Shown one piece after another: positions 3,280-36,182 of a DNA stretch of 37,258 nt. The notes beneath the pieces are model-generated. The model worked only from the letters and a program-made list of their open reading frames with translations, was not told where the DNA came from and ran no database searches. Position 1 is the first letter of the stretch; every line of letters starts with the position of its first letter. Position numbers and translations under genes: made by a program. The stretch spans positions 1 through 37,258 of the forward strand of contig JAJVHV010000048.1 in assembly GCA_022072445.1 (NCBI GenBank), written 5' to 3'. The DNA comes from Phycisphaerae bacterium (GTDB lineage: Bacteria; Planctomycetota; Phycisphaerae; UBA1845; Fen-1342).

Positions 3280-3292
3280 CACAGCTTGCGGG

Positions 3293-4123: not shown

Positions 4124-4220
4124 GGCCCTGGCTTCCGAGTTCCGATCCCTCGCGGATCGCGATTCAGTATACCCGATCACGCACCACGCGCGCCGCGCGG
4201 CGCCGCGCGCGATGCCACCG

Positions 4221-4250
4221 CCAGCCGAGCCCCGACCGTGAGGGAGGGGT
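4221..4250 (+). repeat. Dispersed repeat, copy 1 (GAGCCCCGACCGTSAGGG family)
   Basis: This copy carries the core GAGCCCCGACCGTGAGGG followed by AGGGGT. Four copies occur in the window: 4221, 4369 (inverted), 10390 and 18280. Copies 1 and 2 match over 30 bases as perfect inverted repeats about 118 bases apart, so the transcript could fold into a long hairpin. All copies lie at or beyond gene ends. Confidence 0.85.
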
Positions 4251-4368
4251 CGGACCACGAACGATCCACACCGCGCGCACCGTCGCGCCACAAGCGGGAG
4301 GCTTGACGGAGACTCGCCATCGGGCGCGGCGCGGATCCTCGCCAAGTCCGCGCACGCTCTCGACTCGA

Positions 4369-4398
4369 ACCCCTCCCTCACGGTCGGGGCTCGGCTGG
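4369..4398 (-). repeat. Dispersed repeat, copy 2 (inverted relative to copy 1)
   Basis: The reverse complement of this stretch matches copy 1 (4221-4250) base for base over 30 positions. Both copies lie between the divergent prepilin-type and glycosyltransferase genes. Confidence 0.85.
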
Positions 4399-4473
4399 GG
4401 GGGCGTGATCGCGCCTGGGAGCGTTCCACTCGAATTCGACAGCCTCCGTGCCACCACGCATAATTCCCCCCCG

Positions 4474-13069: not shown

Positions 13070-13199
13070 CGCTCTCGATTTGCGTCAAACCACGCCGGTT
13101 CCGTAAGCCCCATAACCACGGGATAAACTCCGTATTGTCCAAATGCCCGGACGATGCGCACGCCCCCGACGGCAGCCTGAGCCGGTTGGGCTATGCCTT

Positions 13200-13215
13200 T
13201 GGCACGCCAATTGCG
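13200..13215 (+). promoter_or_regulatory. Sigma-54 (RpoN) promoter for the multihaem cytochrome gene
   Basis: The stretch TTTGGCACGCCAATTGCG (13198-13215) contains TGGCAC, five bases, then TTGC, with GG and GC exactly 10 bases apart, a near-perfect sigma-54 promoter. It lies about 75 bases upstream of the ATG at 13288 on the same strand. It is the second such promoter within 2 kb. Confidence 0.78.
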
Positions 13216-13287
13216 AGCGGATTTCCCCTGTGACACTTCGTCATGCTCGCGATCAAACACACTCGCGCCGAACCGAAGGAGGTTGCC

Positions 13288-14646
13288 ATGACAGGAACGA
13301 TCGCTCGCCGGCTCCGAATCCCCGTCGCCAGTTTGAGCCTGCTGCTCGTGATGAACCTCGGCGGATGCCCATCGATCTTCGACACGTCCGGAAACGACAA
13401 TTCGAGCAGCGAAACGGGCGATAACGTGCCTGGAGACGACAGCAGCCAGGACAACCCGGCGCTCTCGAACAACGCCGACAAGAGTAACGCCGAGGCCCGC
13501 TACGTCGGCGCCAACGCGTGTCGAAACTGCCATAGCGACATCGCCGAACTGCATTCACGTCACGGTCATGCGCACAAGATTACCGCGATCTCCGGCGAGC
13601 CGCCGACGTTTCCGGACGGAACGACGGCGGGCGTGCCGAATCCGCCCGATGGGTTCGCGTGGACCGATGTCGCGTGGGTGATCGGCGGCTACACGAAGAA
13701 GGCGCGGTTCGTCGATCAGGAGGGCTATATCCTGACGACCGGGTCGACCGGGAAGAAGGTCCAGTGGAATCTCGCGTTCGGTCCCAATGGAGGCGCGGCG
13801 GGCTTCGGCAATTATGAGCCCGATCATCCCGAGCGCAAGCCGTTCGACTATTCGTGCTTCGTTTGCCACACCACCGGAGCCCTGCCGCAGGACGAAGATT
13901 TTCCGGAGTTTCAGGACAATCGGCCTGGGATGCGCGGGACGTTCGAGGAAGCGGGAATTCAGTGTGAGGCTTGCCACGGTCCCGGCTCGAACCACTTCAC
14001 GACGTCAGACGGCCAGGTGGTGATCAGGACCGACCGGATATTCATTGATCCGGACGGGAGCGCTTCGTGCCGCGCGTGCCATAATCGCCCGTACGACGAC
14101 CAGACGGGGAACATCGTGGCCAGCGGCGGCTACCTGCAGCATCACGAGCAGTGGCCCGAGTTACGGGCGAGCGGCGGGCACGCGCAGCTATCGTGCCTGG
14201 ACTGCCACGATCCGCACCGATCGGTCTACTACGACAAGGCAAACGCGATCCGCCAGCGGTGTGCCGATTGCCATCCGACGGCAAACATGGCGGGGCACGC
14301 AGGCGCGGTTTACACGCGTTCGGACGGGTATAGCGAGGCGTTAGGCTGCGAGAGCTGCCACATGTCGTACCCAGTGAAGAGCGCCACGGCCGTGGCGTCG
14401 GCGTTGGTTGGTCCGGTGGCGCGGATTGGCGACGTTCGGTCGCATATCGTGCGGATCAACACCGAGCCGGTCGATTACAAGACGTTCTTCGCAGCCGACG
14501 GCAAGTCGGTGGCACGCGATGCACAGGGACGGGCCGCGGTGACGGTTGACTTTGTGTGCGTGCGTTGCCACAACGGCAACGGGCTGTTCGAGCTGAGCGT
14601 GGCGCGGGCGGCGGAGATCGCGAAAAACGTGCATCTGCTGCCGTAA
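13288..14646 (+). CDS. Eight-haem c-type cytochrome lipoprotein
   Basis: The protein has 452 residues; ATG 13288 is preceded by a consensus AAGGAGG site. The N-terminus is a lipoprotein signal (TIARRLRIP, hydrophobic core, then LGGC), so the mature protein should be anchored in an envelope membrane. An acidic, Asn/Ser-rich linker of about 40 residues follows. Eight CxxCH haem motifs then appear in order: CRNCH, CFVCH, CEACH, CRACH, CLDCH, CADCH, CESCH and CVRCH. The pattern of paired motifs (CEACHGPGSNH, CLDCHDPH) resembles multihaem electron carriers of the cytochrome c554/NrfA-like superfamily, but without a clear catalytic-site signature. The role is most likely extracytoplasmic electron transfer. 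It has its own sigma-54 promoter and ends at a hairpin facing the convergent carboxylase gene. Confidence 0.92.
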   Translation: MTGTIARRLRIPVASLSLLLVMNLGGCPSIFDTSGNDNSSSETGDNVPGDDSSQDNPALSNNADKSNAEARYVGANACRNCHSDIAELHSRHGHAHKITAISGEPPTFPDGTTAGVPNPPDGFAWTDVAWVIGGYTKKARFVDQEGYILTTGSTGKKVQWNLAFGPNGGAAGFGNYEPDHPERKPFDYSCFVCHTTGALPQDEDFPEFQDNRPGMRGTFEEAGIQCEACHGPGSNHFTTSDGQVVIRTDRIFIDPDGSASCRACHNRPYDDQTGNIVASGGYLQHHEQWPELRASGGHAQLSCLDCHDPHRSVYYDKANAIRQRCADCHPTANMAGHAGAVYTRSDGYSEALGCESCHMSYPVKSATAVASALVGPVARIGDVRSHIVRINTEPVDYKTFFAADGKSVARDAQGRAAVTVDFVCVRCHNGNGLFELSVARAAEIAKNVHLLP

Positions 14647-22678: not shown

Positions 22679-23764
22679 TCAACGCTTCACGAGCCGGTAG
22701 TACCCTGGTCTGGGCGTCCGCACGAACTCGATCAGGCCCCTCCCGACGAGGTCGGAGAGGTCGCGCTTCGCCGTTTTCGAGACGATTTCGAAGTGCTTTT
22801 CGAGGCGCGCGCGCTCGATTCTCACACCTTGGCGAAGCTGGTCGAGCACCCAGTGCTGCCGATCGCTCAAGGGGACATTGGCCGGGCTTGCGGGGACATC
22901 GGTCCTCGGCGCGGGGACATCAGACACATCCGTGTCCCCGCATGTCCCCGCGATGTCCCCGCCAGATGTCCCCGCGACGTCCCCGCAACCGTTCCGCACC
23001 GTGATCCACTCCCTGAGGCGGTAGCCGGGGCCGCCGCTGACGATCACGTTGTCCGGACCGCAGGCGATGCCTTGTCTCGCCAGGACGCTCGTGATGCGTT
23101 CGCGCAGATCGCCGATGCACGACGACACGGTGTTCTGCGTGGCCCGGCCGCCCTTGAAAAGTCGGGCCAGTTCGTTCGCCCGTGCCGGTTTGAATCTTCC
23201 GTCCGGGTGCTTATCGCGCAGGCGCTGCAGGACCGGCCAGAAGTTCCCGCGCTCGGATGATTCAGCGATCGTCTCGCCGATAAGCTCGACGCGCCCCGAG
23301 AAGAAGACCATGTCGCCTCCCTCGAAACTCCGCAGCGCGGCCGGCGGGAGGGTCGGTGGTGCCCCGCCCGCCGGCAGAACGCTGCGAATGATCTCGTCGA
23401 AAGGCCGCTTGCTGCGGTTGAACGGCTTAGCGATGTAATCCGTGGCGCCGAAACGCATGGCATCGACCGCCTGGTCCGGGCCGTCGTTTCCGTGCCCGGT
23501 CATCACGACGACGGGCATCGCATATCGCTGTCGAATCTCCTTGAGGAGGTTGATCCCGTTCTGTATCCGGGCGATGTTTCGCCCCGCGCGGACGGGAATC
23601 TCAAGGTCCAGCAGGATGTAGTCGTAGCGGCTTGCCTCGAGCCGCTGCCGGGCCGAGTGCATGCATGGTGCCGAGTCCGACGCGTGGCCCAGAGACTCGA
23701 CGATGTCAGCCACCTCCTCCACGATGCCGGGATCGTCCTCGACGATAAGTGCTCTGAACGTCAT
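22679..23764 (-). CDS. Response regulator with REC domain and two DNA-binding-type HTH regions
   Basis: The protein has 361 residues. The receiver domain (1-125) is complete: acidic cluster VEDD (8-11), phospho-acceptor Asp53 (YILLDLEIP), Thr89 (VVVMTGHG) and Lys113 (YIAKPF). Residues 150-252 look like a winged-helix output domain ending in the beta-hairpin VSGGPGYRL, as in OmpR-type regulators. A low-complexity linker (259-298) is encoded by repeated GGGGACA/TGTCCCC units. The C-terminus (LSDRQHWVLDQL, SKTAKRDLSDLVGRGLIEFV) is a second HTH of the DeoR-like kind often seen at the end of Fic or RecG-like proteins. The start overlaps the kinase stop by four bases (ATGA), so it is translationally coupled to its partner kinase. 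It most likely controls transcription of this operon or of the neighbouring defence genes, which is inference. Confidence 0.9.
   Translation of the reverse strand: MTFRALIVEDDPGIVEEVADIVESLGHASDSAPCMHSARQRLEASRYDYILLDLEIPVRAGRNIARIQNGINLLKEIRQRYAMPVVVMTGHGNDGPDQAVDAMRFGATDYIAKPFNRSKRPFDEIIRSVLPAGGAPPTLPPAALRSFEGGDMVFFSGRVELIGETIAESSERGNFWPVLQRLRDKHPDGRFKPARANELARLFKGGRATQNTVSSCIGDLRERITSVLARQGIACGPDNVIVSGGPGYRLREWITVRNGCGDVAGTSGGDIAGTCGDTDVSDVPAPRTDVPASPANVPLSDRQHWVLDQLRQGVRIERARLEKHFEIVSKTAKRDLSDLVGRGLIEFVRTPRPGYYRLVKR
22871..22984. repeat. GGGGACA / TGTCCCC repeat cluster in the response-regulator linker
   Basis: On the plus strand there are three GGGGACA units at 22871, 22892 and 22913, exactly 21 bases apart. 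They are followed by TGTCCCC at 22933, 22943, 22954 and 22967 and a CGTCCCC variant at 22978. The two halves are mutually complementary, so the region could form hairpins. In the protein it encodes a Gly/Asp/Val/Pro linker. Confidence 0.8.
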
Positions 23765-24924
23765 GCTTCACCCGCTCCATGCTCCAACGGCAGGGCAATG
23801 GTCACGGTGGTGCCGCGGCCCTCCTCGCTCTCTATCGTCAGCGAGCCGCCGTGGGCGACGAGGCTGCGGCGCGCGATGGGCAACCCGAAACCGGTGCCCT
23901 CGTTCTTCTTGGTTTTCGCCCCGGGCAGGAACTCGAGGATCTGTGCCAAGTCCTCCTTCGACATGCCGGCTCCGTTGTCCCGGATCACGATCTGCGCCAC
24001 GCCCTCGTCCACCCGAGCGGCGATCCCGATCGAGCGTGCGTCCACCGCGCTGTCCTGCGAGAATGCCTCGAATGCGTTCCTGATCACGTTGACGAACGCC
24101 ATCAGCACGCGGTCGCGGACGACCTCGACTGTGATCCCACCGTCGACGGCTTGATCTACGGCGATATCCGTCGTTTGGTATCCGCGTCCCTCCGCCGCTT
24201 CGCGCGCAAGGCGTTCGGCCTCCGAGAGCAGGTCGCCGAGGCGTTCCGGGCGCCGCGTCGGCGGCACGGGCAGCGCGTAGCTGCGCATGTCATCAACCAT
24301 CCGGGCGAGCAGGTCGACGCGCTCGCGCATGTGCTGGAGCGAACGCCTCAGACGTCCCGGCTGGATCGGCGTATGCGCCAACTGGTCGATGATCCGGTCG
24401 AGCCTCGACGCGAGCGGCGTCAGAATGCCACGGGCGTCGTGCGCTGTCGCGCCCACAAGCTGGTCGTAGTAGGTCTCGCCGATCTGACGCGCCAGACGGG
24501 CCGCTTCGGCCCCGTGCTTCTGCTCGAGCTGCGCCAGCTTGCCGGCGAAGGTCGTCGAGGCACGCCGTCCGCCGTTTGTGGGACCGGGAGTGGACCGGCG
24601 TCGCTCCAGGGCGCCGTCCGCCGCACGGCGGACGAACGTATTCTCGTCGTCGCTGAGCTGGACGAGGGTCTTTGTGAACCGGTCGTCGGGCGCGTGCCGA
24701 AGAGCGTCGGTGACGGCCTTGCGCACCTCCCACTTGGGGTCGGCGGCAAGCCGGTTCATGAGCTCTATCGCCGCGGCCGCGTCGGTCGCCGACCCACTCG
24801 TTTGCAGTGCCAGGACGAGCGGCCGGGGAAGGTGACGGCGCTCGGTCCATGCGACCGCCTCGGGGTTCTCGCGAAGGCGGCTGACCAATTGCTGAACGTT
24901 CGCGGGCGTCAGCTCGGCGTGCAT
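23761..24924 (-). CDS. Sensor histidine kinase with N-terminal HEAT repeats
   Basis: The protein has 387 residues and no membrane helix, so it is cytosolic. Residues 35-110 are HEAT-like helical repeats (DPKWEVRKAVTDALRHAPD, then NTFVRRAADGAL), a protein-binding platform in place of an extracellular sensor. The dimerisation/phosphotransfer helix has AHDARGILTPL with the likely phospho-His at 162. The HATPase domain is complete: N box VNVIRNAFEAF (Asn283), G1 IRDNGAGMS (Asp316) and G2 GTGFGLPIAR, then GTTVTIALPL. ATG 24924 is chosen because it overlaps the stop of the upstream ATPase gene by one base (TGATG). The downstream response regulator overlaps its stop by four bases. The signal is probably another cytosolic protein, and the co-encoded ATPase is the obvious candidate; that is inference. 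Confidence 0.92.
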   Translation of the reverse strand: MHAELTPANVQQLVSRLRENPEAVAWTERRHLPRPLVLALQTSGSATDAAAAIELMNRLAADPKWEVRKAVTDALRHAPDDRFTKTLVQLSDDENTFVRRAADGALERRRSTPGPTNGGRRASTTFAGKLAQLEQKHGAEAARLARQIGETYYDQLVGATAHDARGILTPLASRLDRIIDQLAHTPIQPGRLRRSLQHMRERVDLLARMVDDMRSYALPVPPTRRPERLGDLLSEAERLAREAAEGRGYQTTDIAVDQAVDGGITVEVVRDRVLMAFVNVIRNAFEAFSQDSAVDARSIGIAARVDEGVAQIVIRDNGAGMSKEDLAQILEFLPGAKTKKNEGTGFGLPIARRSLVAHGGSLTIESEEGRGTTVTIALPLEHGAGEA

Positions 24925-26846
24925 CAGTACTTGTATCTCCGCTGGCGTTCCCGGAACGCGTCCTCGCCGCCCTCCAGGAGCGTGACGACGTCCTGCTTGC
25001 ACTCGTCCACGGTCCCGACGCGGCTGACGACCGCCTTCATTCCATCCGAGCGCAGGACGAAGACGCGCTCGGCGTCGCCCAGGACCGGGATGTTCGGGTT
25101 GTGCGTGACGAAGATCAGTTGGCGGCGGGTCTTCACGTCCCGGATGCCCTTAACGATCGTCTCGTAGATGAAGCTGTTGTCGAGGTTGTCCTCAGGCTGA
25201 TCGATCAGCAGCGGGTTGGCGCTGTCAAGCATCAGGATCGGCAGGATGGCCGTGCACTTCTGCCCGGTCGAGAGGGACAGCGAATCCTTGTACTGCTCGC
25301 CGTCGAGCAGCTCGATCCACGGGCGATCGATCAACTCAACGGTCTCCAGATCGAACAGCAGCTGGTCCTTCGCCAGCGCCGTGAAGACCCAGTCGGCCTG
25401 GTTTGTGTTCAGTCCGGCCTGATCGATCAGCGCGTCGCGGTCGCGGGTCGATACGATCGCCGAGAGCTCCGCCGGCGAAATCGCGTCTACGATCTTCTGG
25501 GCGACGACCTTGCGGTTGACCCTGGCCCCCTCCAGCGCGCTCTCGACGAGTTGGCGATAGGCATCGCGGTTACCGAACTGCTCGACCCGCACGCGGATCG
25601 CCTCGCGGAGTTGCTGGGTGATGTGGGCTGCCTGCTCCGTGCGGAGCTTGAACCGGCGATCGCGCAGCTCCGACAGCCGAGCCAGCAGCTCCTGCCGCTC
25701 CTGCTGCCCGGTCGCGAGACGCGCTTCGAGGTCCTGTTTCGATTTTCGGTGCGCGAGAAGCTCGTTGCGCTTGCGTTCGAGCTGCGCCCGCTCGGCCGAT
25801 TGGGCCTCCGCGACCTTGTGCTTCTCGACCAGTTGGCGGAACACCGCCTCCTGCTTCTGATGTTCGTTGCGCAGGCCGTCTTGGGCATTGGAGATCGATC
25901 GCCCCGCGTGCTCGACCGCGGCGCAGGCCTCCGCGATTGCAGCGTCGACTCTTTCTCCGCACTCGCGAATCGCGGCGGCGACCGCTTGAAGCACCTTTCC
26001 ATTGGGGCCGGCCAGCATGTCCGGCTCGAGGGCCGGCGCCTGCCGATTGATTCGCCCGGTGAAAGCGGAAAGGCCCCGATGCTCCTGGCGCAGCACTTCG
26101 AGCGTGGCAGCGACCGCTCGGACCTCGCGGTCGCGGAGCGCCTTCTGCGCATGGGCCTGGTTGATCGCCTCCGACGAGCCACCAGCGGTCGCGGCGAACT
26201 TCTTGAGCCTTTCCTCGATCGCCGGCAGCTCGCCGAGGGCGTCGGTGAGCCCCGCCTGCGCGTCGCGCAATTCCGAAACGGAGACGGCGTTCGTCTGGAG
26301 TGCACCTATCGCCACTCGAATCTGGGCCTCGATCTCGGCGACGGACTCCGCGATGAAGCTGTCGAGCAGCGCGAGCTGGGAGAGGGGATCGTCCGCGATC
26401 GTCTCCACCTCGTCCTGGCTGAAAACGTCGGCGCGGAACACGCCGGTCGTGCCGAGGGCGATGTTGGTGGGCTCGCCGTCGGCCGTGAAGACGGCCGGCG
26501 GCTCGTGCGCCGTGCGGCTGACGCGATACTCGATCCCGTCCTTCGTCTCGACGACGATCGTGATTCGACCGCCGCCCAGGTTTGTCTGAACGAGGGACTC
26601 GACCCAGCGCCGGAGGGTGCCGTCGCCGTCGCCGCGAAACTCCTCCAGCGCGTACCGGACGAACTCGATCGCGGTCGTCTTGCCGGTACCCCGATGCCCT
26701 ATCAGGCAGTTCAGCCGGTCGGCCAGCTCGAACTCGACGCCGTCGAGGAACCCGCCCGCGACGCTGATTGACTTGATGCGGTGGGCTTCTGGCCGGTCGC
26801 CGCCTCCGGCGGATCGGCCGAGAGAGTGTGTGATAGCCTGCGTCAT
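24924..26846 (-). CDS. SMC/RecN-like AAA ATPase with central coiled coil
   Basis: The protein has 640 residues; ATG 26846 follows a strong AGGAGATCGGAG site, and the longer frame upstream enters the promoter region. Walker A is GHRGTGKT (50-57) in CLIGHRGTGKTTAIEFVRYAL. The C-terminal part carries the ABC-type signature LSLSTGQKC (about 522-530), Walker B LLIDQPEDNLDN (about 546-557) and the switch motif FVTHN (about 579). Between lies a long region rich in Glu, Gln, Arg and Ala (about 270-440) with heptad character, a coiled coil. This is the layout of SMC, RecN or Rad50-like ATPases, which bind DNA ends or act as sensors in many anti-phage systems. It is the first gene of an operon with a HEAT kinase and a response regulator, and diverges from a type I restriction operon. 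Confidence 0.9.
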   Translation of the reverse strand: MTQAITHSLGRSAGGGDRPEAHRIKSISVAGGFLDGVEFELADRLNCLIGHRGTGKTTAIEFVRYALEEFRGDGDGTLRRWVESLVQTNLGGGRITIVVETKDGIEYRVSRTAHEPPAVFTADGEPTNIALGTTGVFRADVFSQDEVETIADDPLSQLALLDSFIAESVAEIEAQIRVAIGALQTNAVSVSELRDAQAGLTDALGELPAIEERLKKFAATAGGSSEAINQAHAQKALRDREVRAVAATLEVLRQEHRGLSAFTGRINRQAPALEPDMLAGPNGKVLQAVAAAIRECGERVDAAIAEACAAVEHAGRSISNAQDGLRNEHQKQEAVFRQLVEKHKVAEAQSAERAQLERKRNELLAHRKSKQDLEARLATGQQERQELLARLSELRDRRFKLRTEQAAHITQQLREAIRVRVEQFGNRDAYRQLVESALEGARVNRKVVAQKIVDAISPAELSAIVSTRDRDALIDQAGLNTNQADWVFTALAKDQLLFDLETVELIDRPWIELLDGEQYKDSLSLSTGQKCTAILPILMLDSANPLLIDQPEDNLDNSFIYETIVKGIRDVKTRRQLIFVTHNPNIPVLGDAERVFVLRSDGMKAVVSRVGTVDECKQDVVTLLEGGEDAFRERQRRYKY

Positions 26847-27299
26847 CTCCGATCTCCTGATGAGCAGCGCAGGGATTCCCCGCCACGGCTTGGCCGTGTG
26901 TTCGGTCGCCCGGAATCGTCTGCGCACGCCGTAAAGCGCCCGGCGACCCCGTCCGTGGGGAGCAATTCCTTGGCCGCGCCGGGCAGCCTTGGCTGGCATC
27001 GGCCGATGACCGCGGCCGATCATCGTGTTAGCTTAATGTACGGCAACAGCCATGTCAAGCCATATCCCGTACAAGACCCGAAAATCTGCCTCGCGTGGCG
27101 GCGATGCGCCCGGCGGGTCTGACCCCGCCTGTCCTACCCCTCGGTGTGGCACTGGGCAGGGAATATGGGCGCCGGCGGCCGGATTCCGGGATGTCGGGTA
27201 CGCCTACCCATCGCGCAGGAAAGGACTTAACATTGGCGTCATCTTGGGCGATGCCGCTCGTGGCGCCGCCCGATATCGGCAATTACTGATGAGCGGGGC
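26847..27299. other. Divergent intergenic region between the ATPase operon and the hsdR operon
   Basis: This 453-base gap contains a candidate sigma-70 promoter for the minus operon (27030-27058) inside a GTACGG/CCGTAC inverted repeat. It leaves a leader of about 175 bases before the ATPase start. I found no clear promoter for hsdR and no conserved small ORF. The region 27020-27075 is notably AT-richer than its surroundings. Confidence 0.55.
27030..27058 (-). promoter_or_regulatory. Candidate sigma-70 promoter of the ATPase/kinase/regulator operon, within an inverted repeat
   Basis: On the minus strand a perfect TTGACA (27058-27053) is followed after 17 bases by TAAGCT (27035-27030), a good -35 with a weaker -10. 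The arms GTACGG (27038-27043) and CCGTAC (27067-27072) flank the -35 box and could be an operator. The AT-rich patch stands out in the gap between two divergent operons. Confidence 0.5.
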
Positions 27300-30059
27300 G
27301 TGATCGTGCCGGAGACGCCGGAGGAAAAAGCCCGCAGGCAGATCGATGAGCAGCTCACCCGCTGTGGCTGGACGGTGCAGCACCGGGATGCGGCCGACAT
27401 CACCGCTGCGCCCGGCGTAGCGATCCGGGAGTTTCCGCTCGCCGGTGGCGACGAGGCGGATTATCTCCTCTACGCCAACGGCAAGGCCATCGGCGTCGTC
27501 GAGGCGAAACCCGAAGGCACCACGCTCACCGGCGTCGAGGTCCAATCCGCCAAGTACACGCAGGGCCTGGCCCCTACCCTCCCCGCCTACCACCGGCCCC
27601 TACCATTCGCCTACGAGAGCACCGGCGTCGAGACCCGCTTCACCAACGTGCTCGATCCTGACGCGCGCAGCCGCGAGGTGTTCACGTTCCACCGCCCCGA
27701 GACCCTGGTCAACTGGGCGACGGCGCCGGACCAGCTGCGGGCTCGCCTGCGCAGCCTGCCACCGCTCGTTCCCGGCAGCCTGTGGGATGTGCAGCGCCGC
27801 GCGATCCTCAGCCTTGAGCGGTCGCTCGCGCAGAACCGCCCCCGCGCGCTGATCCAGATGAGCACCGGCTCCGGCAAGACCTTCACGGCGGTGAACTTCG
27901 GCTACCGCCTGATCCGGCACGCCGACGCCCGGCGCATTCTGTTCCTGGTCGATCGCAGCAACCTCGGTCGCCAGACACTGAAGGAGTTCCAGCAGTTCAT
28001 CACGCCCGATGATGGCCGCAAGTTCACCGAGTTGTACAACGTCCAGCATCTCCAGGGCGCCAACATCGACCGCGTCAGCCGCGTGTGCATCACCACGATC
28101 CAGCGGCTCTACGCGATGCTCAAGGGCGAGGAACTCGACCCGGACCTCGAAGAAGGGTCGGTTTTCGAGGCCGCCAACCCCCTGCTCAAGCAGCCGGCGC
28201 CGGTGGAGTACAACCCGGCGATCCCGATCGAGACCTTCGACTTCATCGTGACGGATGAATGCCACCGCTCCATCTACAACCTGTGGCGGCAGGTGCTCGA
28301 CTACTTCGACGCTTTCATCATCGGCCTGACGGCGACGCCATCGAAGCAGACCATCGGGTTCTTCAACCGCAACCTGGTCATGGAGTACAACCACGAGCAG
28401 GCCGTGGCTGACGGCGTGAACGTCAATTTCGACGTCTACCGCATCAAGACGCGTATCACGGAGCAGGGCTCGAAGGTCGACAAGGGGTATTACGTCGACA
28501 AGCGTGACCGGGAGACCCGCGCGCGACGCTGGGAGCAACTCGACGAAGATCTGATCTACGATGCCAAGAAGCTCGACCGCGACGTGGTAGCGACCGACCA
28601 GATCCGCACCGTCGTCCGCGCCTTCCGTGACGCGCTGGGGCGCGACCTGTTCCCCGACCGCACGCACGTTCCCAAGACCCTGATCTTCGCGAAGGACGAC
28701 AGCCACGCCGACGATATCGTGCAGATCGTGCGGGAGGAGTTCGGCAAGGGCAACGAGTTCTGCCAGAAGATCACCTACAAGACCACCGGCCGCAAGCCGG
28801 AGGAGCTCATCGCCGAGTTCCGGAACAGCTACAACCCGCGCGTCGCCGTCACCGTGGACATGATCGCGACGGGCACCGACATCAAGCCGCTCGAAATCGT
28901 GTTCTTCATGCGCTCGGTGCGCAGCCGGACGTTCTTCGAGCAGATGAAGGGTCGCGGCGTGCGGGTCATCAGCGACACCGACTTCAAGGCCGTCACGCCG
29001 GATGGCACGAAGACGCACTTCATCATCGTCGACGCGGTCGGCGTGTGCGAGGCCTGCAAGAGCGACACGGTTCCGCTTGAGCGCAAGCGACAGGTGTCGT
29101 TCGAGAAGCTGATGGAGGCGGTCGCGTTCGGTAGCACCGATACGGACGTCATCTCCTCGCTCACCGGCCGGCTGGCCCGCCTCGATCACCGGCTCGACGA
29201 CGCACAACGCCAGGAGATCCGCGATGCGACGGACGGCGCATCGCTAACCGAGATCGTCGGCGGCCTGATGGCCGCGCTCGATCCGGACACGCAGGTCGAG
29301 CGCGCCAAGGTCGAACACGGCACCGAAGCGCCCACGCCCGAGCAGGTCCAGCAGACCGCGGCCAAGCTGCTCACCGAGGCAGCCCAGCCGCTGCGCAAGG
29401 CCAAGGCCCGCAACAAGATCGTCGAGATCAAGCAATCGTTCGAGCAGACGATCGATACAGTGAGCCAGGACGAGGTGCTCGACGCCGGCTTCGACGGCAA
29501 CGCCAAGGAGCGGGCGCAGCAGACGGTCGCGAACTTCCAGCAGTTCATCGCCGCGCACCGCGACGAGATCACGGCACTCCAGGTGCTCTACAGCCAGCCC
29601 TACCGCCGCCGGCTGACGTTCAGCGAGATTAAGGAGCTGGCCGACGCCATCCGCAAGCCGCCGCTGGGCCTCACGCCGGAGCGCCTCTGGCGGGCTTACG
29701 AGGTGCTGGAGAAATCCAAGGTGCGCGGCAGCGGTGGCCGGCAGCTCACCGACATCGTCTCGCTGGTGCGGCACGCGCTGGACCACGACGAGGCGCTCGT
29801 CCCCTACGCCGATGTCGTCCATGAGCGCTTCGCCACCTGGCTGGCGGCGCAGCAGGCGGCGGGCCGCACGTTCACGCCCGATCAGATGCGCTGGCTGGAG
29901 TTGATGCGCGACCACGTCGCCACGAGCCTGGCGATCACGCCGGAGGACTTCGAATACACGCCGTTCAACGAGGAGGGCGGCATCGGCCGGGTCTACCAGC
30001 TCTTCGGTGATGAGTTCAACAAGCTGCTGGACGAGCTGAATGAGGCGTTGGCGGCATGA
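27300..30059 (+). CDS. hsdR: Type I restriction endonuclease R subunit (EcoEI-like)
   Basis: The protein has 919 residues. GTG 27300 is listed; GTG 27306 is two codons later and better spaced from GCGGGG. The N-terminal nuclease domain has the D-ExK core in EADYLLYANGKAIGVVEAKPEG, given here as residues near 52-73. The helicase motor has Walker A QMSTGSGKTF (about 185), the DEAD-type box VTDECHRSIY (about 318), GLTATPSK, and motif VI-like FEQMKGRGVRV. The C-terminus resembles the EcoEI R C-terminal domain. The protein translocates DNA and cuts when the complex meets an unmethylated target. The gene heads a tightly packed operon: its stop overlaps the start of hsdS by four bases (ATGA), followed by a TIR-APAZ gene, a short Argonaute gene and hsdM. 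Confidence 0.96.
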   Translation: MIVPETPEEKARRQIDEQLTRCGWTVQHRDAADITAAPGVAIREFPLAGGDEADYLLYANGKAIGVVEAKPEGTTLTGVEVQSAKYTQGLAPTLPAYHRPLPFAYESTGVETRFTNVLDPDARSREVFTFHRPETLVNWATAPDQLRARLRSLPPLVPGSLWDVQRRAILSLERSLAQNRPRALIQMSTGSGKTFTAVNFGYRLIRHADARRILFLVDRSNLGRQTLKEFQQFITPDDGRKFTELYNVQHLQGANIDRVSRVCITTIQRLYAMLKGEELDPDLEEGSVFEAANPLLKQPAPVEYNPAIPIETFDFIVTDECHRSIYNLWRQVLDYFDAFIIGLTATPSKQTIGFFNRNLVMEYNHEQAVADGVNVNFDVYRIKTRITEQGSKVDKGYYVDKRDRETRARRWEQLDEDLIYDAKKLDRDVVATDQIRTVVRAFRDALGRDLFPDRTHVPKTLIFAKDDSHADDIVQIVREEFGKGNEFCQKITYKTTGRKPEELIAEFRNSYNPRVAVTVDMIATGTDIKPLEIVFFMRSVRSRTFFEQMKGRGVRVISDTDFKAVTPDGTKTHFIIVDAVGVCEACKSDTVPLERKRQVSFEKLMEAVAFGSTDTDVISSLTGRLARLDHRLDDAQRQEIRDATDGASLTEIVGGLMAALDPDTQVERAKVEHGTEAPTPEQVQQTAAKLLTEAAQPLRKAKARNKIVEIKQSFEQTIDTVSQDEVLDAGFDGNAKERAQQTVANFQQFIAAHRDEITALQVLYSQPYRRRLTFSEIKELADAIRKPPLGLTPERLWRAYEVLEKSKVRGSGGRQLTDIVSLVRHALDHDEALVPYADVVHERFATWLAAQQAAGRTFTPDQMRWLELMRDHVATSLAITPEDFEYTPFNEEGGIGRVYQLFGDEFNKLLDELNEALAA

Positions 30060-31615
30060 AGCGCGACGACGTCACTGATTTGCCGATCGGCTGGGCGCTC
30101 GCAAGAGTGGGCGAGATCGCCGACGTGAACCCGCGCTTCGACCGCAACGGAATCGCCGACGACGCGACAGTGTCGTTTGTGCCGATGGCAGCCGTGGAGG
30201 AGGAATCCGGCCGAATCGACACCTCGCAGACGCGTCCTTTTGCTGAAGTCAGGAAGGGCTACACGCCGTTCCTGCGCGGCGACGTGCTACTGGCGAAGAT
30301 CACGCCTTGCATGGAGAACGGTAAGCTGGCGGTTGCTCCGGAGCTGACAGGGGGCGTCGGATTCGGCTCAACGGAATTCCACGTGCTCCGCTCTCGCGAT
30401 CCGATTCGCTCCGCTTGGTTCTTCTACTTCCTTCTCCAGAGGTCGTTCCGGCGCGAGGCGCGCCGGCAGATGACCGGCTCCGCAGGCCAATTGCGCGTGC
30501 CGGCCGACTTCGTGGCCGCCACGCAGATTCCTATTGCACCAATCGCCGAGCAGGATCGCATCGTCGCCGAGATCGAGAAGCAGTTCACACGGCTGGATGC
30601 CGGCGTGGCGGCGCTGAAGCGCGTCGAGGCGAATCTGCGGCGGTACAAGGCGGCGGTGTTGAAGGCGGCGTGCGATGGAAGCCTGTCGGCGCCGTGGCGG
30701 GCCGCCCACGCGGACGTCGAGCCGGCAGAGAAGCTGCTGTCCCGTATCCTCCGCGAACGCCGGCGGCGGTGGGAGGAAGCGGAGCTGGCCAAGCTGGTCG
30801 CCAAGGACAAGCCGCCGAAGGACGACCGCTGGAAGCAACGCTACAAAGAGCCCGCCCCGCCGCGCACGGCCGGCCTGGCCGAGCTGCCGCCGACGTGGTG
30901 CTGGGCGACGGTCGAGCAGCTCACGCCGTTTGACCGGCCCGCAGCCTATGGAGTGCTGCAACCCGGGAGCGATATCGACGGCGGCATTGAGTTTGTGCGC
31001 GTGTGCGACATCTGGGAAGGCGCGATTCTCCGAGATCAGTTGAAGAGAATCTCGCCGGCCATCGCCGCGCGGTACCCACGCACCAAGCTGGAAGGCGGGG
31101 AGGTGCTCGTCACGATCGTGGGCACGATCGGCCGCTCCGCTGTTGTTCCAGCGGAACTAGCGGGCGCGAATACCGCGCGCGCCGTCGCCGTCTTGCCCAT
31201 CGCGCAGCCGATCGAAGCGAGGTATGTGGAGATCTGCTTCCGTAACCCGGCGAAAGCGCGCGAGCTCACGGGCAAAGCTCACGAGGTGGCTCGTAAGACG
31301 TTGAATCTCGAGGACGTCCGCGCAACTTGTATTCCGCTGCCCCCGCAGGATGAGCAAGCGGTGATCGCCGAGATGGTGGACGACACCTGGACGATTGTGC
31401 AGTCGGTCGAGCAGACGGTTGAGGTGAACCTCAAACGGGCGGACCGACTACGCCAGTCAATCCTGAAGGCGGCGTTCGAAGGCCGGCTGGTCGCCCAGGA
31501 CCCGTCGGATGTACCGGCGGCGGTGCTGCTGGAGCGGATTCGGGCAGAGCGCGACGCAGGCGAGCGCCGGACTACGCGACGTACTCGGCCGCGGCGGAGG
31601 GTACGGCATGGATAG
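30056..31615 (+). CDS. hsdS: Type I restriction-modification specificity subunit
   Basis: The protein has 519 residues, larger than the common 400-450. It has two target-recognition domains: TRD1 about 8-170 (starting LPIGWALARVGEIADVNPRF, ending FVAATQIPIAPIAEQDRIV) and TRD2 about 280-440 (starting LPPTWCWATVEQLTPF, ending IPLPPQDEQAVIAEM). The conserved helical spacer lies between them (FTRLDAGVAALKRVEANLRR, YKAAVLKAACDG), and its partner at the C-terminus is LRQSILKAAFEGRLV followed by ASQ-type DPSDVPAAVLLERIRAER. The spacers set the gap in the bipartite DNA target. The last 20 residues are very Arg/Thr-rich (RRTTRRTRPRRRVRHG) and overlap the start of the TIR-APAZ gene by eight bases. The start overlaps the hsdR stop by four bases. 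The target sequence cannot be predicted by eye. Confidence 0.95.
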   Translation: MKRDDVTDLPIGWALARVGEIADVNPRFDRNGIADDATVSFVPMAAVEEESGRIDTSQTRPFAEVRKGYTPFLRGDVLLAKITPCMENGKLAVAPELTGGVGFGSTEFHVLRSRDPIRSAWFFYFLLQRSFRREARRQMTGSAGQLRVPADFVAATQIPIAPIAEQDRIVAEIEKQFTRLDAGVAALKRVEANLRRYKAAVLKAACDGSLSAPWRAAHADVEPAEKLLSRILRERRRRWEEAELAKLVAKDKPPKDDRWKQRYKEPAPPRTAGLAELPPTWCWATVEQLTPFDRPAAYGVLQPGSDIDGGIEFVRVCDIWEGAILRDQLKRISPAIAARYPRTKLEGGEVLVTIVGTIGRSAVVPAELAGANTARAVAVLPIAQPIEARYVEICFRNPAKARELTGKAHEVARKTLNLEDVRATCIPLPPQDEQAVIAEMVDDTWTIVQSVEQTVEVNLKRADRLRQSILKAAFEGRLVAQDPSDVPAAVLLERIRAERDAGERRTTRRTRPRRRVRHG

Positions 31616-33068
31616 CGGCTCCGGCGGGACCAGCCATGATGACAACGCGCCGGTGGACCTGTTCCTCTGCCACAACGGGGCGGACAAGGATTGGGTTCGG
31701 CACCTGGCCGAGCAGGTCGAGTCGGAGACCTTTGACGGGCGGCCTGACGGCCGGTCGCTCCGGGTCTTCTTCGATGAGTGGGATATCGACGTCGGCGAAA
31801 ACGTGGTCCTGAGGCTGAATGATGGGCTGCAACGCGCCCGTTACGTCGGAATCGTCCTCTCTCCCGACATGCTGAAAGCGCCCTGGCCCGCGCTGGAGTG
31901 GACGGATGTAGTAGCGGGCGATCCGACGAATCGGCGCAACCGGCTAATCCCGATCTTCTTCCGCGACGGCACCGAGAAGAACGGCGAACGGATCGAGCTT
32001 CCAGCGCCGTTCAAAGCGCTCCACTGGCTGGACTTCCGACAAGCCAAGCAGTTCAAGAGCTCGTACCAGCGGCTGATCCGCAAACTGCGCGATAAGCCGC
32101 CGACTCGCGGGCGGCGTCGCCGGCCGCTGGCCTCGCGCGAGGATCCCGCTACGCCGATCGGGGTAATCGAACCGGACAGCCCGGCAGCGCCAGATCGCAT
32201 CAACGAAGTGGTCCTTGGCAACCTCCTCCCGGTGGAATCGTATCCGACGACGATCTGGAGCGCGCCGACGGGCGCCCGCGACGCTGAGGACATCTTTGCG
32301 CGCATCGAGCAGCCCCCGCCATTCGAGCTGAAGGGCGGACGGTTGCTCACGTTCGTCGACCTCTCGGTACGCGACAACGTGTTCTCGCCCCTCATCGACG
32401 CACGCGCCGTCACGCCGGCGGCGATCCAGCAATGGCGCGACGATCCGGACCGAATGCGCTGGTTCATCGGGCTGCTGAACCGCTGCCTCCACCAGCACCT
32501 GCGGCGCTTGTACCTGAAGCGCGACGATCGCGGCCGGTACTTCTTCCTTTCCGACCGCGGCAACCCGCGCAAGGTCGTCAACCCCGGTGACCCGGCGCGC
32601 GAGGTCGCGGCGAAGAAGACGAACGCCTCCACCGGAGCTGAATTCTGGGTCCATCAGGCGGCGTGGCTGCGATTCCAGTCGCTGGGCGATTCGCTGTATC
32701 TGCTGATCGATCCGTGCTACGTATTCACGGCCGACGGCGAGCGTCCACTCGTTGGCCGCACCGTCGGGCCGCTGTCCATGCAGTGGACCGGCAAGGAGCG
32801 CAACGCCGCCATCCTGCGCCACGTGGTGTTCTGGACGCGATTCCTGGGACGCGGAGCGACGAAACTCGAGTTCCACACGGGGGCGGCGCCAATTGTCCTA
32901 TCCGGCATCCCCGCGCTCGCTCGAGTCAATCGAGGCATCGACTTCGACCACATCGCCGTCGGATCGCTCCTCCATCAGGTCGAAGATGAGCTTGGCAGGG
33001 CTGCGGCGAACGTGGTGTTGGTCGATCCGGCTGAAAGTGATGATGATGAAGAAGAGCTGGCGGAGTAA
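31608..33068 (+). CDS. TIR-APAZ protein, effector half of a SPARTA-type short Argonaute system
   Basis: The protein has 486 residues; ATG 31608 overlaps the hsdS stop by eight bases. Residues 16-150 form a TIR domain: DLFLCHNGADKDWVRHL (strand A and helix), LRVFFDEWDIDVGENV, then RYVGIVLSPDMLKAPWPALEW, with Glu97 in the position of the catalytic NADase Glu. After a basic linker (about 160-180) the rest fits an APAZ domain: NLLPVESYPTTIWSAPTGAR, LKGGRLLTFVDLS, FWVHQAAWLRFQSLGDSLYL, IDPCYVFTADG and KERNAAILRHVVFWTRFLG. In SPARTA the TIR-APAZ protein pairs with a short pAgo, and guide-directed target binding triggers multimerisation and NAD(P)+ loss. The next gene is exactly such a short pAgo. 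Its position inside a type I RM operon, upstream of pAgo, is unusual. The C-terminus is acidic (ESDDDEEELAE). Confidence 0.88.
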   Translation: MDSGSGGTSHDDNAPVDLFLCHNGADKDWVRHLAEQVESETFDGRPDGRSLRVFFDEWDIDVGENVVLRLNDGLQRARYVGIVLSPDMLKAPWPALEWTDVVAGDPTNRRNRLIPIFFRDGTEKNGERIELPAPFKALHWLDFRQAKQFKSSYQRLIRKLRDKPPTRGRRRRPLASREDPATPIGVIEPDSPAAPDRINEVVLGNLLPVESYPTTIWSAPTGARDAEDIFARIEQPPPFELKGGRLLTFVDLSVRDNVFSPLIDARAVTPAAIQQWRDDPDRMRWFIGLLNRCLHQHLRRLYLKRDDRGRYFFLSDRGNPRKVVNPGDPAREVAAKKTNASTGAEFWVHQAAWLRFQSLGDSLYLLIDPCYVFTADGERPLVGRTVGPLSMQWTGKERNAAILRHVVFWTRFLGRGATKLEFHTGAAPIVLSGIPALARVNRGIDFDHIAVGSLLHQVEDELGRAAANVVLVDPAESDDDEEELAE

Positions 33069-33132
33069 ACGACCACAGGGCGGGCGGCCCAAGAGCCGCC
33101 CACGGCCTAGCGTGAGCCGTGGGGCGCTGTTG

Positions 33133-34683
33133 ATGCAGCGCCTGATCACGGACGCGACGTCGTCGTTCCCCGCGTGGCACATCGAGGAGCCCAAGCTGAT
33201 CTTCGCCGGTGATCGGCGGACCGAGGACCCGAAGACGGGCATTACGGTCTTCGGGCCGCGGCAGCTCGACCAGCTCTCCCGTCAGGCGATCAGGATCGGC
33301 GTCGTCGGCACCGGCGAGACGGTACAGCTTCTTCACAACTGGCTATCGACTGCCGAAGGGAGAATCACCGCCGGTCGCAACAAGGCAGGGAAGGCATACG
33401 ACGCGGTTCTGGCGCCGGACTTCCCCGGGTTTTCGCCCGATTCGCCGTTCCGGTGTGCGCTGGAACTGGACGAGCGCTTGTGCGAGACGCTGCCGTTGAA
33501 AGACGTGGAGCAGGCCGTTGAGGGGGCGTCTTTCTCAGCTCGTGTTCGTGGCGTCGTCGAGGTGGTGGCCGAACGGCTGGGCGTCCTGGCCGAGCGCGAG
33601 CCGTCGCCGGACGTGGTCATCTGTGCAATGCCAGAATTGGTCGATCGCGCCTGTGGCCCACAGGGACGGCGCGGGGTTTTTCGCGCAGTTCCACTGACGC
33701 CGCGTCAACGCGCGGAGAAACGCATGCGGCGCCAGGCCGCGCGGGTCGGTCAAATGCTGCTGGCGTTCCCCAGTACCGACGACGAGCCCGAGCAGGAGGA
33801 GCATTGGGACTTCCACAACGCGCTCAAGGTCCACGCGATGCGGTCGCAGTTGCCCACGCAACTCATCTGGGAGAGCACGCTCGCTGGCACCCGGGACACG
33901 CAAGATCCGGCCACGATTGCATGGAACTTCTTCACTGCGCTTTTCTACAAGGCGGGGAATGTGCCCTGGGAACTCGGATTCGAGGCCCCCGGAACGTGCT
34001 TCGTGGGCGTGACCTTCTACCGTGAGCGGCCGGGTGCCAGCGCGGTGACACGCGTGAGTTTGGCTCAGGTCTTTTCGGAGACGGGCGATGGCCTGGTGCT
34101 GCGCGGCGAACCGGTGGAGTGGGATCGCGATCGGGATCGAAAGCCACACCTGTCGGAGCCGGCAGCGCGGAAGCTGCTCGAGCACGCGATCCAGCAATAC
34201 GAGAAGCACTTCAACAAGCCGCGGCGCGTGGTGGTCCACAAGACGTCGCGCTACTGGCCGGAAGAACTCGCCGGGTTCAAGGCCGGTCTCGGCGACGTTC
34301 AGTCGTTTGACTTCCTCACGCTCGAGCGGCGCGGCATCCGGTTTCTGCGGCTTGGTCACGAGCCGCCACTGCGCGGCACGGTGATCCAGCTCGCTCGCCG
34401 CAACTACTTGCTGTATACACGCGGCTACGTCCCGTACCTGCGGGCGTATCCGGGCATGCGTGTTCCGAATCCAATTGAGATCGCGGAGCATCACGGTGAC
34501 TCGTCGGCCGACAAGGTCTGCTCGGAAATCCTGGCGCTGACCAAGCTGAACTGGAACAACTGCGGCTTCGCCAGCCGTGACCCGATCACGATCGCGTTTT
34601 CGAGGCAGGTCGGGCGCATCCTGACCGAGCTGCCGGCGGTCGGAATCGAGGCTCCATTGACCAAGTACAAGTACTACATGTGA
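33133..34683 (+). CDS. Short prokaryotic Argonaute (MID-PIWI, catalytically inactive)
   Basis: The protein has 516 residues from ATG 33133, which follows GTGGGG at about 8 bases; ATGs at 33040-33046 would add about 30 residues and overlap the TIR-APAZ gene. The start is typical of short pAgos: IEEPKLIFAGDRRTEDPKTG, then FGPRQL. There is no PAZ or N domain. The MID region has HNALKVHAMRSQLPTQLIWE and FFTALFYKAGNVPWEL, giving Lys232, Gln243 and Lys273 in the positions that hold the 5'-phosphate of the guide. The PIWI slicer residues are lost: Thr294 (FVGVTFYRE), Thr371 (VVVHKTSRY), and no Asp in ITIAFSRQVG. That is normal for short pAgos, which sense rather than cut. It should form a heterodimer with the TIR-APAZ protein just upstream. 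Its stop overlaps a GTG at 34680, with hsdM following. Confidence 0.9.
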   Translation: MQRLITDATSSFPAWHIEEPKLIFAGDRRTEDPKTGITVFGPRQLDQLSRQAIRIGVVGTGETVQLLHNWLSTAEGRITAGRNKAGKAYDAVLAPDFPGFSPDSPFRCALELDERLCETLPLKDVEQAVEGASFSARVRGVVEVVAERLGVLAEREPSPDVVICAMPELVDRACGPQGRRGVFRAVPLTPRQRAEKRMRRQAARVGQMLLAFPSTDDEPEQEEHWDFHNALKVHAMRSQLPTQLIWESTLAGTRDTQDPATIAWNFFTALFYKAGNVPWELGFEAPGTCFVGVTFYRERPGASAVTRVSLAQVFSETGDGLVLRGEPVEWDRDRDRKPHLSEPAARKLLEHAIQQYEKHFNKPRRVVVHKTSRYWPEELAGFKAGLGDVQSFDFLTLERRGIRFLRLGHEPPLRGTVIQLARRNYLLYTRGYVPYLRAYPGMRVPNPIEIAEHHGDSSADKVCSEILALTKLNWNNCGFASRDPITIAFSRQVGRILTELPAVGIEAPLTKYKYYM

Positions 34684-34694
34684 CGGATCGCATC

Positions 34695-36182
34695 ATGAGC
34701 AACCACTCACAGCAGATCGTTCAGAAGCTCTGGAACTACTGCAACGTCCTGCGCGACGACGGCCTGAGCTACCAGGACTACATCGAGCAGCTCACGTACC
34801 TGCTGTTCCTGAAGATGGCCGACGAGCGGACGCGGCCGCCGTTCAACAAACCTGCCATCATCCCCGAGCCGTTCTCGTGGGCACAGCTCCTCAAGCGTGA
34901 CGGCGACGCGCTGGAGGTGCAGTACCGCAAGACCCTCGAAGGCCTCGGCAAGCAGCCGGGGATGCTCGGCATCATCTTCCGCAAGGCGCAGAACAAGATT
35001 CAGGACCCAGCGAACCTGCGCCGGCTCATCGTCGACCTCATCGATCGCGAAAGCTGGCTGACGCTCGACGCCGACGTCAAAGGTGACGCCTACGAGGGGC
35101 TGCTCCAGAAGAACGCCGAGGACGTGAAGGGTGGCGCCGGGCAGTACTTCACGCCGCGGCCGCTGATCCAGGCGATCGTTGACTGCATGCGGCCGGCTCC
35201 GGGTGAGTTGATCTGCGACCCGGCGTGTGGTACCGGCGGCTTTCTACTGGCGGCGTACGAGTACATCTCGCGTCACCATCGCCTGAACCCGGACCAGAAG
35301 AAGCATCTCAAACACAAGGCGCTGCGCGGCTGGGAAATCGTCGACAACACGGCGCGCCTGTGCGTCATGAACCTGTACCTCCACGGAATCGATCCGGACG
35401 AGTGCCCGATCCGCGTGGCCGATTCGATCCGAGCGGATTCGGGGGAGCGGTTCTCGATGGTGCTGACGAATCCGCCGTTCGGCAAGAAGAGCAGCCTGTC
35501 GATCGTGAACGACGAGGGAGAGGCGGAGAAGCAGGACCAGGTCATCGTGCGCGACGACTTCTGGGCGTCGACGAAGAACAAGCAGCTCAACTTCGTGCAG
35601 CACGTAAAGTCCCAGCTCGCCATGCACGGGCGTGCGGCCATCGTCGTGCCGGACAACGTCCTCTTTGAAGGCGGCGCCGGCGAGACGATTCGGCGCAAAC
35701 TGCTGCACGAGTGCGATGTGCACACGCTGCTGCGGCTGCCGACGGGAATCTTCTACGCGCAGGGCGTCAAGGCGAACGTCCTGTTTTTCGACCGCAAGCC
35801 GGCCAGCGAGACGCCGTGGACCAAGGAGCTGTGGGTCTACGATCTCCGCACGAACATGCGTTTCACGCTCAAGACGAACCCACTCAAGCGCGGCGATCTG
35901 GACGAGTTCGTGACGTGCTTCAACCCGGAGGCGCGGCACGAGCGCAAGGCCACTTGGACGCCAAAGCGAAGTCCCAACGGTCGCTGGCGGGCGTTCGGGT
36001 ATGATGAGCTGTTGAAGCGCGACAAGATCAGCCTGGACATCTTCTGGCTGCGCGACGAGAGCCTGGAGGACTCGGAACACCTGCCAGCGCCGGCGACGAT
36101 TGCAGAGGAGATCGTCGAAGATCTGGAGGCGGCGGTCGATCAGTTTGCCGAAATTGCTGGTGATTTCGGCGGCGCTCCCTAA
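34695..36182 (+). CDS. hsdM: Type I restriction-modification DNA methyltransferase (M subunit)
   Basis: The protein has 495 residues. ATG 34695 is preferred, giving the classic N-terminus SNHSQQIVQKLWNYCNVLRD; GTG 34680, which overlaps the pAgo stop, would add five residues. The N-terminal helical domain (EQLTYLLFLKMADER) is followed by KGGAGQYFTPRPLI. The S-adenosylmethionine motif DPACGTGGFLLAAYEY starts at about residue 175, and the catalytic N6-adenine motif is TNPPFGKKS (NPPF about 258-261). The enzyme methylates adenine in both half-sites of the HsdS-defined target, protecting host DNA. It is the last gene of the hsdR-hsdS-TIR-APAZ-pAgo-hsdM operon. Placing the methylase after the toxic effector genes means loss of the operon tail would leave host DNA unprotected. 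Confidence 0.96.
   Translation: MSNHSQQIVQKLWNYCNVLRDDGLSYQDYIEQLTYLLFLKMADERTRPPFNKPAIIPEPFSWAQLLKRDGDALEVQYRKTLEGLGKQPGMLGIIFRKAQNKIQDPANLRRLIVDLIDRESWLTLDADVKGDAYEGLLQKNAEDVKGGAGQYFTPRPLIQAIVDCMRPAPGELICDPACGTGGFLLAAYEYISRHHRLNPDQKKHLKHKALRGWEIVDNTARLCVMNLYLHGIDPDECPIRVADSIRADSGERFSMVLTNPPFGKKSSLSIVNDEGEAEKQDQVIVRDDFWASTKNKQLNFVQHVKSQLAMHGRAAIVVPDNVLFEGGAGETIRRKLLHECDVHTLLRLPTGIFYAQGVKANVLFFDRKPASETPWTKELWVYDLRTNMRFTLKTNPLKRGDLDEFVTCFNPEARHERKATWTPKRSPNGRWRAFGYDELLKRDKISLDIFWLRDESLEDSEHLPAPATIAEEIVEDLEAAVDQFAEIAGDFGGAP

Follow-up and report, generated by a model that had tools for sequence, protein, structure and literature searches.

To our knowledge, phosphorelay signalling is rare among known immune systems. 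One described case is Detocs, which has a different sensor and a purine nucleoside phosphorylase as its effector. Two other comparisons are relevant: the TrlF/Ppl (PHP-SMC) family, in which NCBIfam names Ppl an anti-phage protein, and the WYL regulators of the CapW/BrxR type, which are known from defence operons. Here we analyse a 37,258-nucleotide stretch of DNA from a Phycisphaerae bacterium (contig JAJVHV010000048.1; hereafter "the window"), in which three minus-strand genes at 26846-22679 encode an SMC-like ATPase, then a soluble histidine kinase and then a response regulator. Comparison with related loci indicates that this trio is probably a mobile phage-defence signalling unit.

The trio and Detocs are alike in that phosphorelay-type proteins are proposed to control an immune output. 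They differ in that the sensor here would be an SMC-like ATPase acting with a HEAT-like kinase, and the output is predicted DNA binding. We regard the locus as a two-component module whose likely sensor is a TrlF-type ATPase, rather than as an established Detocs system. No description of the trio was found in the open-access literature searched, including the accessible parts of PMC7159879 and PMC12839542; most subscription papers lie outside that search.

Architecture of the operon and its proteins

The genes and their candidate promoter are arranged as follows.

24924..26846, minus strand: ATPase gene, 640 amino acids; SMC/RecF-type, with a C-terminal TrlF-family part and no PHP domain
23761..24924, minus strand: kinase gene, 387 amino acids; HEAT-like helical N-terminus (about residues 7-111), DHp domain with H162, HATPase_c
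22679..23764, minus strand: regulator gene, 361 amino acids; receiver with D53, winged helix (about 150-258), disordered linker (262-293), second winged helix (about 300-358)
27030..27058, minus strand: candidate sigma-70-type promoter, TTGACA-N17-TAAGCT (boxes TTGACA at 27058-27053 and TAAGCT at 27035-27030)

The ATPase carries AAA_23/AAA_21 halves in Pfam and aligns with positions 292-944 of the 944-position profile for the TrlF family AAA-like ATPase (NF045780; E 7.6e-90). Its score of 302.9 bits falls short of the curated cut-off of 350 bits, and the match begins beyond the first part of the profile, which we take to be the PHP domain. Pfam likewise gives no PHP match, so the N-terminal PHP part is absent. 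Weaker matches exist to Spaf_1101 and to Ppl (NF042955, cut-off 1000 bits), the latter reaching 128.6 bits, below its cut-off, over two stretches of which the best is 517-637. The protein contains GHRGTGKT, LSTGQKC and LLIDQPEDNLDN, presumably the Walker A, signature and Walker B motifs, and thus has the SMC-like ATPase half that is common to TrlF and Ppl. It differs from those proteins in lacking PHP, in scoring below the TrlF cut-off and in being followed by kinase and regulator genes. Because the PHP part and the cut-off score are both wanting, it is not a member of TrlF proper; by its sequence it belongs with the TrlF/Ppl family minus PHP. This refines the description given in an earlier note on this DNA, which had called it a DNA-binding-type ATPase.

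The same note had proposed that the kinase is cytosolic and carries HEAT repeats in place of a membrane sensor, and the protein bears this out. Pfam matches are to HEAT_2 and HATPase_c, and no transmembrane segment is seen by hydropathy (the highest 19-residue mean is 1.26). A structure model with a mean predicted local distance difference test score (pLDDT) of 86.9 has a core that matches HK853 and YycG. Of 93 aligned kinases, 92 have the phospho-acceptor H162 and one has a gap there. N283 is present in 91, the others having gaps, D316 in 90 (two gaps and one N), and G318, G345 and G347 in 91 each. The kinase sequences therefore have the acceptor histidine and the N and G boxes of two-component kinases.

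In the regulator, Pfam detects Response_reg. The structure model (mean pLDDT 85.7; predicted template-modelling score 0.49) shows two winged helices besides the receiver: one of OmpR/PhoB type and, beyond a disordered linker, another at the C-terminal end. The best structural matches of the first winged-helix part include VanR, MtrA and KdpE. Receiver and winged-helix fold are thus common to this protein and the OmpR/PhoB response regulators, but the linker and second winged helix are additional. D53 is found in 92 of 92 aligned regulators, T or S at position 89 also in 92 of 92, and K113 in 91 with one gap, such that the Asp, Thr/Ser and Lys of two-component receivers are all represented. PADLOC-DB 2023 returns only SduA and PDC-M60 (two models) for this protein, and no TCAD9 or APH match was found in Pfam up to E 1. 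The output part varies among 103 regulators: 40 have both winged helices, 16 have the first only, 42 have neither by two models, and five are cut. Two Myxococcales regulators (L094 and L100) are 441-464 amino acids long, and past its receiver that of L100 gives no Pfam match up to E 0.5.

The kinase ATG and the ATPase TGA share one base, whereas kinase and regulator overlap by four bases (ATGA). The ATPase likely starts at the ATG at 26846, which has AGGAG 7 nt upstream. The frame stays open to an ATG at 27023, which sits a few bases past the -10 box, and a longer, leaderless product starting there is possible. An ATG equivalent to 27023 was not seen at that place in the related loci L072, L076 and L077.

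A simple consensus promoter scan of 26840-27320 gave no site above threshold, and so the promoter candidate rests on comparison among relatives. Of 98 homologous ATPases, 14 have the pattern TTGACN-N16-18-TA...T upstream, whereas 200 single-base shuffles averaged 0.96 such cases and never exceeded 5. Seven of the 14 carriers (the window, L050, L057, L060, L072, L076 and L077) fall at similar distances within the window's 11-row clade, and the box is clear in the alignment of L072, L076 and L077.

Recurrence and mobility of the trio

Within the phylum, the trio is patchily distributed, with kinase matches in 11 of the 294 genomes searched. This search gave 13 loci apart from that of the window. 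The ordered trio is seen at 11 of them, including L031, whose kinase is interrupted by a stop; of the other two, L029 starts within the kinase and L030 contains a merged frame. An ATPase-kinase fusion in L030 was considered but judged to be broken or misassembled, its frame lacking the C-terminal half of the ATPase and the N-terminus of the kinase.

A wider search with an ATPase alignment (A4) provided the best 80 of 558 confirmed loci in a genome collection and 57 loci on viral contigs. Our counting set pools the window with these 80 loci, the 13 found earlier by their kinase and the first 34 of those on viral contigs (L123-L156); removal of duplicates by the last 150 ATPase residues left 115 unique loci. 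The set leaves out L157-L179, which have ATPases of the longer PHP-bearing type or distant ones, fragments and two TCAD9-type trios, as well as L035-L042, all eight of which are contigs that recur in the viral-contig search.

At 96 loci the contig extends 2.7 kb or more downstream. The kinase is found at 93 of these, and kinase followed by regulator at 92. Because loci were found by their ATPase (the 13 earlier ones by their kinase), kinase and regulator are independent observations at most of them, and the recurrence of the three-gene order indicates more than a chance arrangement. With the gene overlaps and the promoter candidate that recurs in close relatives, it upholds the earlier view that the three genes form one unit. 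The ordered trio is missing at L113, L116, L117 and L030. L116 and L117 are Nannocystis ATPases of the trio clade with no kinase or regulator downstream by the profiles used. Trio hosts include Planctomycetota, Verrucomicrobiota, Lentisphaerota, Pseudomonadota, Myxococcota, Gemmatimonadota and Fidelibacterota, in addition to viral contigs. Seven phage records match the ATPase, none over 80% of its length, and the 5.25-Mb genome, of which the window is one whole contig, has a single match to it.

Several comparisons bear on the mobility of the trio. In an ATPase tree of 111 rows made by a quick method, the context switches between phage and non-phage at least 24 times. Two copies in one metagenome-assembled genome (L072 and L077) are 84% identical in DNA across the trio and about 190 bp upstream, with no further match in the flanking stretches compared. 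Between L072 and L076, the match covers this block and one additional stretch of 177 bases. The sister trios L044 and L046, whose ATPases are 82% identical and whose other two proteins are 70 and 61% identical, are similar in DNA from near the ATPase start. The former stands directly behind a type III Mod-Res-PDC-S06 operon and the latter directly behind an SspC/BrxC-like-PglZ-BrxL (BREX-like) operon. By these sequence comparisons, the trio behaves as a mobile cassette.

Similar positions recur elsewhere. The L084 trio lies about 30 bp behind type III Mod-Res-OLD/GajA-like genes, and an HsdM-type gene is directly ahead of the trio in L048 (and, by BLAST, L049). Nearby genes at other loci encode Res (L071), HmaC (L077), HsdR (L063) and type I methylases (L066 and L156), and L068 has a Snf2 helicase (best PADLOC model C3a139, next DrmD) and an MkoA-like gene near the trio. 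Twenty of the neighbour proteins scanned are large neighbours of striking loci rather than a random sample; three of these 20 had no PADLOC match. A regulator cluster, the scanned member of which carries WYL and WCX domains, as in the WYL regulators of defence systems, is present at 14 trio loci, mostly adjoining the ATPase. No member of this cluster is labelled in the gene map of the window.

Plasmid relatives with a different output

ATPase, kinase and regulator also occur in order in six plasmid neighbourhoods (L016-L021) from Klebsiella, Rhodococcus, Shinella, Leclercia, Caballeronia and Phaeobacter, picked among the 40 matches listed because their ATPase was annotated as something other than TrlF. 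Their ATPases are 26-29% identical to that of the window (alignment A3), and no HEAT match was found in the three plasmid kinases scanned. Gene order and the kind of ATPase are thus as in the window, but the regulators end in a TCAD9/APH-like domain instead of winged helices. TCAD9 (Pfam PF19974) is present on all six, with the receiver above the cut-off in four and just under it in two. The plasmid trios thus retain the front end but have another output, a pattern described as typical of conflict systems in PMC7159879.

The Klebsiella regulator matches 48 plasmid records, 36 of them from Piscirickettsia, and a megablast search of E. coli genomes with the Klebsiella plasmid trio gave no match. 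Two viral-contig loci (L157 and L159) appear, by gene order and sizes, to have trios of the TCAD9 type.

Association with defence genes

The earlier note had called for a neighbourhood search near defence genes, and a defence context does recur at restriction operons, in phage slots and in the proximity of methylase genes. The last of these was tested in 69 genomes, comprising that of the window and those of all 80 genome loci, with a radius of 15 kb around 95 ATPase places. N6_Mtase genes are found near eight of the 95 places where at most 1.4 are expected (P 1e-4), or near seven where 1.4 are expected (P 6e-4) when the genome of the window is removed. For N6_N4_Mtase, at least nine of the 95 places compare to at most 2.9 expected (P 3e-3). 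On the strength of these gene neighbourhoods, we regard the link of the trio to defence as supported.

Several results weigh against this reading. Most of the methylase signal derives from an initial set of 38 genomes, selected for their long flanks once their contexts were known (N6_Mtase 6/54, P 2e-4; N6_N4_Mtase at least 8/54, P 8e-4). The other 31 genomes, whose loci are mostly on short contigs, were added because the first 38 left out loci without a visible defence gene; they yield 2/41 against 0.55 expected for N6_Mtase (P 0.11) and 1/41 against 1.0 expected for N6_N4_Mtase (P 0.64), neither of which is significant by itself. Pooling makes one methylase P value weaker and the other stronger than in the first 38, and does not alter our overall assessment. 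A less sensitive leave-one-out BLAST scan of flanks detects defence genes at 10 of 77 trio loci and in 3 of 55 control windows, a difference that is not significant (P 0.24), and a first BLAST scan found no defence gene at 61 of 77 loci of at least 11 kb. A count made without leaving one out (16/77 against 0/20 windows, some of them short) is circular and was not used as support. Moreover, PADLOC-DB 2023 gives no family for the kinase at E 0.01, the predicted output is DNA binding rather than a classical effector, and a regulatory role of the trio in prophages is possible.

Proposed mechanism and alternative explanations

The sequences themselves show the order of the genes, their domains, the conservation of catalytic residues, the movement of the trio as a unit and its defence-type contexts. 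Given these features, it seems fairly probable that the trio is a self-contained, mobile, defence-type two-component cassette in which the ATPase senses foreign or broken DNA, the kinase relays the signal and the regulator alters transcription. We infer the DNA signal, the contact between ATPase and kinase, the direction of phosphotransfer and the targets. As the sensor subunit, the TrlF-type SMC-like ATPase would meet foreign or broken DNA, as its family suggests, and change state. It would then act on the HEAT-like domain of the soluble kinase, in keeping with the earlier proposal that the co-encoded ATPase provides the kinase input, which we uphold as the likely one. The kinase would autophosphorylate at H162 and pass the phosphate to D53 of the regulator, which would then bind DNA via one or two winged helices and change the transcription of its own operon, of defence or stress genes, or of both. 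In the plasmid cousins, the same front end would drive the TCAD9 domain.

One alternative is that the trio is a prophage regulatory switch, in which the ATPase senses DNA damage and the regulator replaces a CI-type repressor in controlling phage early genes, chromosomal copies being leftovers. At least two phage gene types are present at 29 of the 115 loci (a single representative was confirmed for each of the serine integrase, Sak4, helicase, primase, exonuclease and DNA polymerase families, and two for phage sigma). In 13 of the 16 loci that show both, as read from the gene map, the trio lies between a serine recombinase (integrase) and replication/sigma genes, the exceptions being L045, L069 and L109; a lysogeny switch could sit in this position. 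Nine open reading frames of 126-299 amino acids near the trio in prophage-like loci have no Pfam match at E 0.01, and so none of these nine is a recognizable CI-like repressor. However, among 14 phage contigs related by their primase to a prophage of Chthoniobacter flavus, only three of the 10 with at least 6 kb on the trio side carry the ATPase. When four of the seven ATPase-less relatives were read, three proved to have known defence genes in the roughly 6 kb upstream of Sak4 (recognized by eye), which is the trio position in C. flavus (locus L066): a type I methyltransferase (L246), a type III Mod (L244) and the Druantia genes DruE-DruK-HNH (L252; DruE is cut by the contig end). This stretch therefore behaves as a defence slot. 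Many copies, including that of the window, have no labelled phage gene nearby. Because relatives so often do without the ATPase and hold defence genes in its place, we rate a prophage switch as quite unlikely. A second test, with a helicase as bait, found the ATPase in two of 80 contigs (the query and a near relative), many contigs being too short to tell.

The trio might instead control restriction operons in the manner of a C protein, setting expression of the adjoining restriction-modification or BREX-like genes without an immune action of its own. Its places directly behind type I (L048, L049), type III (L044, L084) and BREX-like (L046) operons fit this explanation, as does its divergence from hsdR in the window. 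Yet closely related trios adjoin different systems (L044/L046 and L072/L077), and the regulators of the plasmid cousins carry TCAD9, making such a controller unlikely. It is very improbable that the trio is an ordinary host stress or DNA-damage regulator lying near defence genes by accident. The typical kinase core and OmpR/PhoB regulator would suit that role, but its patchy distribution, its prophage and operon-tail contexts, the presence of several copies in some genomes and the proximity of methylase genes speak against it.

Side observations were made at two of the prophage-like loci. In the Magnetococcales locus L102, a sigma-54 activator with winged helices (13106-14482) lies directly behind the trio; its cluster has members in seven loci, of which the L102 member was scanned. 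In L251, the fourth of the ATPase-less relatives read, the matching prophage stretch holds a gene pair (405 and 350 amino acids; 2697-4944) with no PADLOC match.

The divergent operon and an array of linker repeats

Two further features of the window concern its neighbouring operon, given for context, and the regulator gene.

27300..36182, plus strand: divergent type I restriction operon of hsdR, hsdS, a TIR/APAZ gene, a short prokaryotic Argonaute gene and hsdM
22871..22973, no strand assigned: array of seven GGGGACA words in both orientations, within the regulator gene at the inter-domain linker

As the earlier note had stated, the trio diverges from the restriction operon, in which a SPARTA-like pair (the TIR/APAZ and short Argonaute genes, with overlapping frames) sits between hsdS and hsdM in the 30056-36182 region. 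The suggestion that the regulator switches on this operon finds no support, because the neighbouring systems vary between loci and a repeat search of 26800-27340 found short repeats only, with no sign of an operator array. Control of the divergent operon by the regulator is nevertheless possible.

A triple-word GGGGACA pattern has its sole match in the 5.25-Mb genome at the array within the regulator gene. Ten of the 40 regulators with two winged helices have a linker 7-mer repeated at least four times (shuffle P <=0.005). The repeat resembles GGGGACAT in the window, L062, L045 and L044, and consists of different words in the others; selection or spread may therefore act on these linkers at the level of DNA. 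Words like GGGGACA also occur close to the C-terminal end of two proteins (L337 and L339) that appear Schlafen-like by eye.

Implications

More tentatively, we suggest that these loci represent a family of immune phosphorelays. An effector-stripped TrlF-type ATPase would serve as the DNA sensor of a soluble kinase, and the output, whether one or two winged helices or TCAD9, would be interchangeable. Such a cassette, carried on restriction operons, in prophage defence slots and on plasmids, might sound an alarm upon DNA breakage or invasion. If the ATPase is indeed the sensor, the trio would link a DNA event directly to transcription, offer a reason for the existence of TrlF ATPases without PHP, and represent a modular system with an exchangeable output. 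It would also make it possible to test whether restriction systems can alert the cell in addition to cutting DNA.

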